Of a stretch of 64,000 bases of DNA, positions 1,044 to 15,964 are shown piece after piece. Below the pieces are notes generated by a model that saw only the letters and a program-made list of their open reading frames with translations, searched no databases and was not told where the DNA came from. The translations under genes and the position numbers were made by a program. Positions within the stretch are counted from its first letter, which is position 1. Every line of letters starts with the position of its first letter. Origin of the DNA: Microcoleus sp. FACHB-1515 (GTDB taxonomy: Bacteria; Cyanobacteriota; Cyanobacteriia; Elainellales; Elainellaceae); the NCBI RefSeq assembly GCF_014696105.1, contig NZ_JACJPO010000047.1, positions 1-64,000 on the forward strand, given 5' to 3'.

Positions 1044-1925
1044 ATGAGTTCACCGCCCATTCAGTGGTATCCCGGCCACATTGCCAAAGCCGAACGCGCC
1101 CTACAGGAGCAGCTTAAGCGGGTAGACGTGGTGCTGGAAGTGCGCGATGCTCGCATTCCGCTGACGACCAAGCATCCGCAAATCGATCAGTGGGTCGGCA
1201 ACAAAGGCCGCGTCTTGGTGCTGAATCGGCTCGACATGATTCCCCCCTCACTGCATCAAAAATGGATCGACTGGTTTGCCGCGCAAGGTGAAACCGCCTA
1301 TTTCACTGAAGCGCAGCACGGCAAAGGCGTTGCCGCAGTTGCCCAAGCCGCCAAAATTGCAGGCGAGCAAATGAATCAGCGCAGGCGCGATCGCGGCATG
1401 TTGCCTCGTGCGGTGCGAGCCGTTGTGATTGGCTTTCCCAACGTTGGCAAGTCTGCTTTGATTAACCGCCTGCTGAATCGGCGCGTGGTCGAAAGCGCTC
1501 GGCGTCCCGGCGTCACACGACAACTGCGCTGGATTCGGATTTCTGACCAGCTTGAACTGCTCGATGCTCCGGGCGTTTTGCCCTCGCGTCTCAACGACCA
1601 GCAGGCGGCACTGAAGCTGGCAATCTGTGACGACATTGGCGAGGCATCGTATGATAATCAGCGCGTTGCTGCTAGCTTGATCGATTTGCTCAATCAGCTT
1701 CCGGCTGGAATGAATGTCGGGGCAGCACTGCGATCGCGCTATGGCCTCGATCCGACCCATCTGACGGGAGAAAGCTACATCCGCGATTTGGCCGACCACC
1801 GCTATCAGGGCGATGTGGAGCGATCGGCACGTCAACTGCTCAACGATTTTCGCAAAGGCAATCTTGGCGCACTGCCGCTGGAGTTGCCGTTGCAGCCCGC
1901 CGAATCGATCGTTCAACCGACTTGA
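1044..1925 (+). CDS. rbgA: Ribosome biogenesis GTPase YlqF/RbgA
   Basis: Circularly permuted GTPase of the YlqF/RbgA family, which in other bacteria acts in late assembly of the 50S ribosomal subunit. The permuted motif order is visible: G4 as NRLD (61-64; many families have NKxD), then the P-loop GFPNVGKS (130-137), the G2 threonine in PGVTRQ (158) and G3 DAPG (174-177). The N-terminal WYPGHIAKA is typical of the family. The length of 293 aa is normal. The C-terminal part (about 210-280) corresponds to the RNA-binding ANTAR-like region of RbgA. Its 3' end overlaps the convergent cyclase-like gene by 13 bp. Confidence 0.93.
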   Translation: MSSPPIQWYPGHIAKAERALQEQLKRVDVVLEVRDARIPLTTKHPQIDQWVGNKGRVLVLNRLDMIPPSLHQKWIDWFAAQGETAYFTEAQHGKGVAAVAQAAKIAGEQMNQRRRDRGMLPRAVRAVVIGFPNVGKSALINRLLNRRVVESARRPGVTRQLRWIRISDQLELLDAPGVLPSRLNDQQAALKLAICDDIGEASYDNQRVAASLIDLLNQLPAGMNVGAALRSRYGLDPTHLTGESYIRDLADHRYQGDVERSARQLLNDFRKGNLGALPLELPLQPAESIVQPT

Positions 1926-14425: not shown

Positions 14426-15328
<903 letters not shown>

Positions 15329-15460
15329 CTACTCAGCAGCGATCGAGTGCACGGAAAACAAAAGACTTAGCGAACCGAATAGAGCATTGTCGCTCAACTC
15401 ATCCGTCAAATCACCCTAAGCTTAAATTATTCTGATACATCCGAGACGGCTTCACCACCC

Positions 15461-15479
15461 TTGATTTCTGAAAAATCAA
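15461..15479 (-). promoter_or_regulatory. Hairpin between patX and hetR
   Basis: TTGATTT (15461-15467) and AAATCAA (15473-15479) form a 7-bp stem with a 5-base loop, 54 bp after the patX stop and 136 bp before the hetR start. It has no T-run. It may act as a weak terminator, an RNA processing site or an mRNA-stability element between the two genes. Confidence 0.4.
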
Positions 15480-15532
15480 AGCGATTTTCGCCGAATTAAG
15501 CACAAAGGCGATGAATTGGCGACAATGGCTCG

Positions 15533-15676
15533 TTAGCGGCCACTGCCTCGATAGAGCGAGGAGGTTCCGGGCTGCGGGTTTGAAGGGGGTTGTGAGTTCG
15601 CTGCAAACGCCGCATGAGGAGCAACCGTCAAGCTCAGCATCAAGCCAAGAGTTAAGATTGAGATGCAAGTAATCAT
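15533..15676 (-). CDS. patX: PatX-like pattern-signal peptide precursor ending in RGSGR
   Basis: A 47-codon gene. The protein has a typical signal peptide (ISILTLGLMLSLTVAP core; AxA-type cleavage after A25 in AAFA), then 22 residues rich in Ser, Pro, Gln and Asn, ending exactly in YRGSGR before the TAA. RGSGR is the pentapeptide through which PatS and PatX inhibit HetR, and PatX precursors are known to join a signal peptide to a C-terminal RG(S/T)GR. It lies 207 bp upstream of hetR on the same strand. A purine-rich GGGAAGA sits about 7 bases before the ATG. Export followed by uptake of a C-terminal fragment into neighbouring cells is inferred from the family. Confidence 0.93.
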   Translation of the reverse strand: MITCISILTLGLMLSLTVAPHAAFAANSQPPSNPQPGTSSLYRGSGR

Positions 15677-15964
15677 TTAGATTCTTCCCAGTTGAGTGTT
15701 CTACTTCTTTCAACAGAGGGTTTGAGAAGAAATCAGGACAACTTCGTCAAGAATTGCGGTTTCGGCGTTACAGTTTTTCATCAAGTCGAGGTAGCACCAT
15801 CTGCCGCTGGAAGCTGGAAGCAGCGATCGCAAATTTGCCTTAGATCAAGCCGGAAACATTGCGATCGCCGCAGCCATCTCTAAACAGAAGCGGAAATAAT
15901 AGTAAAAATTTAGAATCAGCGTTTCGGGTGGATCGTGCGATCACCTGAAGCAATTTCCAACTTG

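Follow-up and report, generated by a model that had tools for sequence, protein, structure and literature searches.

A 47-codon gene upstream of hetR in the filamentous cyanobacterium Microcoleus sp. FACHB-1515 is very probably patX, the gene for a secreted RGSGR precursor with HetR as its target. We hold the explanation as a whole with high confidence; its sequence part is shown here, and export, processing and the release of HetR from DNA would follow by homology with Nostoc. The window (the whole stretch of DNA that was analysed, 64,000 nucleotides) contains the following features at this locus, all on the minus strand:

14426-15325, minus: hetR, 299 aa, with all PatS6-binding residues present (Pfam PF03574 and PF18460; NCBIfam NF009718; residue check).
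15326-15532, minus: 207-bp gap between patX and hetR, with 190/208 aligned columns matching in the congener G001; probably the leader or promoter of hetR.
15533-15676, minus: patX, PatX precursor ending in an exact C-terminal YRGSGR (ORF; G001 ortholog; sub-threshold NCBIfam heterocyst_PatX match).
15536-15553, minus: YRGSGR hexapeptide at the C-terminal extremity, putative HetR ligand (translation; identical in G001).
15602-15676, minus: signal-peptide-like N-terminus, residues 1-25, probable cleavage AFA/AN leaving a 22-aa mature peptide (read by eye; hydrophobic core and AFA/A also in G001).
15701-15713, minus: putative -10 element and area of transcription start, where GTA and TAG columns align (GTT replaces GTA in the window; leader alignment, placed by the DIF1 rule: box 35 bp upstream of the start).
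15733-15738, minus: TCCTGA box, a DIF1-like -35 element that precedes the patX start codon by 62 nt (TCC(T/G)GA at the same place in 37/37 unselected and 17/18 multi-copy leaders).

The initial annotation had described a 47-codon frame at 15533-15676 that ends exactly in YRGSGR, with hetR 207 bp downstream of it on the same strand. All of this was confirmed, and the strand can now be given as minus. The frame (MITCISILTLGLMLSLTVAPHAAFAANSQPPSNPQPGTSSLYRGSGR) runs from an ATG to a TAA in the ORF list and its translation, and plus-strand translation of the interval meets several stops. Judged by eye, the product begins like a signal peptide: it has a hydrophobic core at residues 5-19 and an AFA/A site, with an n-region that carries no positive charge, and pairwise comparison shows both core and site kept in the G001 ortholog. 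Codon strings for RG(S/T)GR ending at a stop occur only five times in the whole 5.79-Mb genome, which gives a rough rate of about 0.0004 per kb of hetR-adjacent strand before a signal peptide is even required; each of the remaining four belongs to a frame of 24-49 codons, none with a hydrophobic start (by eye). Together with the conservation described below, this rate bears out the earlier view that a chance origin is very unlikely.

Conservation in G001, the single congener in the searched set of relatives, settles that 15533-15676 is a real gene. The ortholog there is 46 aa long, has the same start and lies 208 bp upstream of its hetR, and both the MITCISILT start and the SSLYRGSGR end are identical. 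Across 46 aligned codons, differences at codon positions 1/2/3 number 5/2/17 (third-position excess, p = 0.0002), with dN 0.093 and dS 0.635 (dN/dS about 0.15), and the sole indel is one whole codon (3 nt, in frame). To judge from this pattern, the frame is under purifying selection at the protein level. The ORFs that overlap it on the plus strand (15511-15672) and on the minus strand (15411-15713) were ruled out as the coding frame because most of the G001 changes would fall on their second and first codon positions. Absence of the frame and motif from close relatives had been named in advance as evidence against the gene; G001 has both. Homology between the window and G001 stops about 105 bp ahead of the patX start codon, so the conserved unit spans a short leader (95/106 identities), patX (117/144), the gap that follows it (190/208) and hetR (801/900). 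Between these two congeners the intergenic gap is thus better conserved than patX itself, which suggests a separate hetR leader or promoter in 15326-15532.

The best family match is to NCBIfam NF047413 (heterocyst_PatX), which scores 13.1 bits over residues 24-47 and does not reach the cut-off of 30; this match over the C-terminal half is weak but specific. At 13 bits against a cut-off of 30, routine annotation would probably miss the gene. The G001 ortholog scores 17.3 bits, those hand-picked clear relatives that gave a match 17-24 bits, and a match above the cut-off was found in just 1 of 60 related genomes. Given that relatives mostly fall under the cut-off, the model is tuned to other lineages, which lowers the formal family call and not the homology. 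In 14 of 39 collected PatX examples (single- and multi-copy) the protein stops right at the motif, and in 25 a tail follows. The residue ahead of the motif is mostly H, but W, Y, N, S and A occur too; ending exactly in YRGSGR thus falls within the normal variation.

Known PatX proteins (NF047413; Nostoc PCC 7120; Leptolyngbya BL0902 GFS31_32390) are likewise small precursors with RG(S/T)GR at the C-terminus or close to it and a DIF1-like promoter, and in Leptolyngbya BL0902 patX also adjoins hetR on the same strand. They have a signal peptide, to which the signal-peptide-like N-terminus here would correspond. There are differences in detail: Nostoc PatX has 56 aa rather than 47, the known motif is HRGTGR whereas that of the window is YRGSGR and exactly C-terminal, and the known promoter box is TCCGGA rather than TCCTGA. 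PatS shares the RGSGR at its exact C-terminus and is a HetR ligand. It is a peptide of 13-17 aa without a Sec signal, it is known from heterocyst formers, and its gene is not known to adjoin hetR; the window product, at 47 aa, has a hydrophobic N-terminus and comes from a genome without a nifH match above the cut-off, and so falls outside PatS. HetN also holds RGSGR but is a much larger protein with the motif internal. The patX products at six other loci (L037, L041, L035, L181, L184 and L185) measure only about 24-35 aa, have a minimal signal peptide or none, and approach PatS in size.

Motif, position, architecture and selection on the frame all uphold the identification as patX beside hetR. 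The importance assigned to it ("strongest biological signal") was overrated. Among the relative loci compared, patX adjoining hetR is common to many non-heterocystous relatives, and the arrangement in non-heterocystous filamentous cyanobacteria has already been published (Elhai and Khudyakov, 2018, as cited in PMC7761841, PMC12756182 and PMC11298460).

On the receptor side, the window HetR scores 259.5 bits against PF03574 (Peptidase_S48), 139 bits against PF18460 (HetR_C) and 576.5 bits against NF009718 (cut-off 489). It aligns without gaps over 298 residues to HetR of Nostoc PCC 7120 and to the solved structures (PDB 4YNL, 4YRV, 4HRI and 3QOD), and the peptide pocket is kept. R223, E253, E254, D256 and D270, which the initial annotation had listed, are all there in the alignment, and so is D278. 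One difference from these proteins is residue 130, a T in the window, where heterocyst formers have the S130 kinase site.

The contribution of the pocket residues has been measured by structure and ITC: PatS6 binds wild-type HetR with a Kd of 12 nM, D256A with 427 nM and R223W with 2353 nM, and E253A not at all (PMC4649674). In the same study, R223 lies near the free C-terminus of the peptide, E254 and D256 surround its N-terminal amine, and a loop restricts the N-terminus such that longer peptides should fit poorly (PMC4649674). This geometry implies that the window PatX would need trimming on the N-terminal side only. The window hexapeptide begins with Y and not with the usual H or E; the side chain of the first residue was without effect on binding (PMC4649674).

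These elements can be assembled into a mechanism. patX would be transcribed toward hetR from the DIF1-like TCCTGA promoter, perhaps jointly with hetR. Sec would export the 47-aa precursor, cleavage would follow AFA, and the resulting 22-aa peptide would lose residues at its N-terminal side, outside the cytoplasm, until YRGSGR or RGSGR remained. Trimming at the other end would not be needed, since RGSGR is already the C-terminus; most relatives have a tail after the motif. The trimmed peptide would then enter cells of the filament by uptake or lateral movement and occupy the cleft of the HetR hood domain, with its two arginines to E253/D270/D278, its free C-terminus to R223 and its N-terminal amine to E254/D256. 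Binding would free HetR from DNA. Export of PatX and its processing by the peptidase PatP have been shown in Nostoc (PMC12756182). By analogy, Sec export, PatP processing, uptake or lateral movement, and binding and inhibition of HetR are what we infer for the window organism, on top of the gene, its conservation, the motif, the intact HetR pocket and the conserved promoter box, which the sequences themselves establish.

The genome also encodes a second HetR without patX, invisible from the window. This protein (L142, G000:C38:18803-19678) is 68% identical to the window HetR and carries D256N, and no credible patX was found within 7 kb upstream of its gene. Related HetR paralogs elsewhere mostly have N256 and are mostly without patX. 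Where HetR adjoins patX, residue 256 is nearly always D (E in one case), and there are two rows with N256 as exceptions: L191, which has patX, and L171, which has a doubtful 13-aa ORF. In the HetR tree there are only two independent contrasts of D256N with patX, and its labels wrongly scored multi-copy loci (L186-L205, L056, L089 and L177) as lacking patX through the tail-length rule; the linkage of D256N with patX loss is therefore suggestive, a lead only. It is conceivable, if doubtful, that the organism runs two HetR circuits, one in which a peptide-sensitive HetR (D256) is locked to PatX with its TCCTGA form of the DIF1 promoter, and one in which the second HetR (D256N, no patX) is peptide-blind or weakly sensitive.

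What the pair does here is a separate question. No nifH match above the cut-off was found in the 100%-complete genome (the best hit, at 221 bits against 394, is probably the related chlL), so nitrogen-fixing heterocysts are unlikely in this organism and the pair probably has a role other than heterocyst patterning. More likely, the pair would govern how filaments behave or the expression of vegetative genes. The phrase "complete inhibitor-activator pair for cell patterning" therefore went beyond the data, both on this ground and because mutants of Leptolyngbya BL0902 suggest that PatX can act independently of HetR. In that non-heterocystous strain, the transcriptomes of patX and hetR deletion mutants suggested that the effect of PatX is largely independent of hetR, and the function of PatX and HetR in non-heterocystous filaments was called a mystery (PMC11298460).

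The main rival to the preferred explanation builds on that result: patX would be present by descent, and its secreted peptide would act mainly through something other than HetR. Both the BL0902 transcriptomes and the lack of a nifH match above the cut-off are in keeping with this. Against it, patX adjoins hetR with an intact motif in many lineages, and HetR linked to patX keeps D256 (E once) while most paralogs without patX have N256, which suggests that the link to HetR matters. We regard HetR-independent action as unlikely here, albeit the alternative to be taken most seriously, and prefer the explanation in which the PatX peptide acts on HetR.

The leader of patX carries a probable promoter element at a fixed place. 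Thirty-seven unselected leaders (35 relatives, the window and G001) were aligned, and all have TCC(T/G)GA some 60 nt before the start codon, as TCCTGA in 35 and TCCGGA in two; conserved GTA and TAG columns follow about 24 and 35 nt past the box. TCCTGA is also found in 17/18 leaders of multi-copy patX genes, at 59-63 nt, and in eight further leaders at 60-69 nt (three doubtful ORFs in that list are without it). Overall the fixed-distance box is shared by the window and about 60 other patX leaders. In heterocyst formers, the DIF1 promoter of patS, patX and hetR has TCCGGA about 35 bp upstream of the transcription start (PMC7377430). The spacing fits DIF1, and TCCTGA is apparently the non-heterocystous form of that promoter. 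RGSGR-ending ORFs upstream of HetR paralogs in two other genomes (G024, 13 aa, and G007) have no TCCTGA box and are probably chance. A genome-wide scan for a TCCTGA promoter regulon was uninformative: the pattern matched 5 times and the control 4 times, and the spacing it required did not cover the site in the window itself.

Some relatives (L034, L037, L085 and L020) have an inverted repeat such as CGTATCAG...CTGATACG across the putative -10/+1 region, absent from the window, which could be an operator. Inverted repeats after the promoter box in several relatives (L034, L037 and L085) also raised by eye the suspicion of a conserved hairpin, such that a 5′ leader RNA, rather than the peptide alone, would be the active product. 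This is very unlikely, and the hairpin was rejected: RNAalifold gives no consensus structure, covariation (pair counts) is near shuffled values, the repeat in the window itself does not exceed chance, there is no Rfam match in the window, and the left arm would fall upstream of the putative transcription start. Least probable of all is a chance ORF inside a conserved hetR leader with a coincidental RGSGR, which could draw on the shortness of the frame, the NCBIfam score under the cut-off and the conservation of the surrounding DNA, but which is in effect already refuted by the codon pattern, and which also runs against the in-frame indel, the unchanged start and end in G001 and the positional homologs across dozens of genomes.

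In other cyanobacteria, HetR-linked patX genes encode 2 to 9 RGSGR copies per precursor, in the manner of a multi-copy peptide prohormone. Such loci include L193 (nine copies; PatX ORF near 1420-1840, plus strand), L187 (eight), L192, L186, L189, L056, L089 and L177, and in a search for multi-copy precursors, 31 of the 291 genomes in the class had matches with E ≤ 0.01. In the open-access papers searched, no description of multi-copy RGSGR precursors was found.

The window patX is, by comparison with its family, an ordinary, easily missed member of the known PatX-HetR signalling pair. It is useful as a clean minimal PatX, with no C-terminal tail and facing a HetR whose pocket is intact, and the D256N paralog without patX provides a natural internal control within one genome. 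More widely, the curated PatX model misses most patX genes of non-heterocystous cyanobacteria, and the fixed TCC(T/G)GA box offers a useful second test for calling them.
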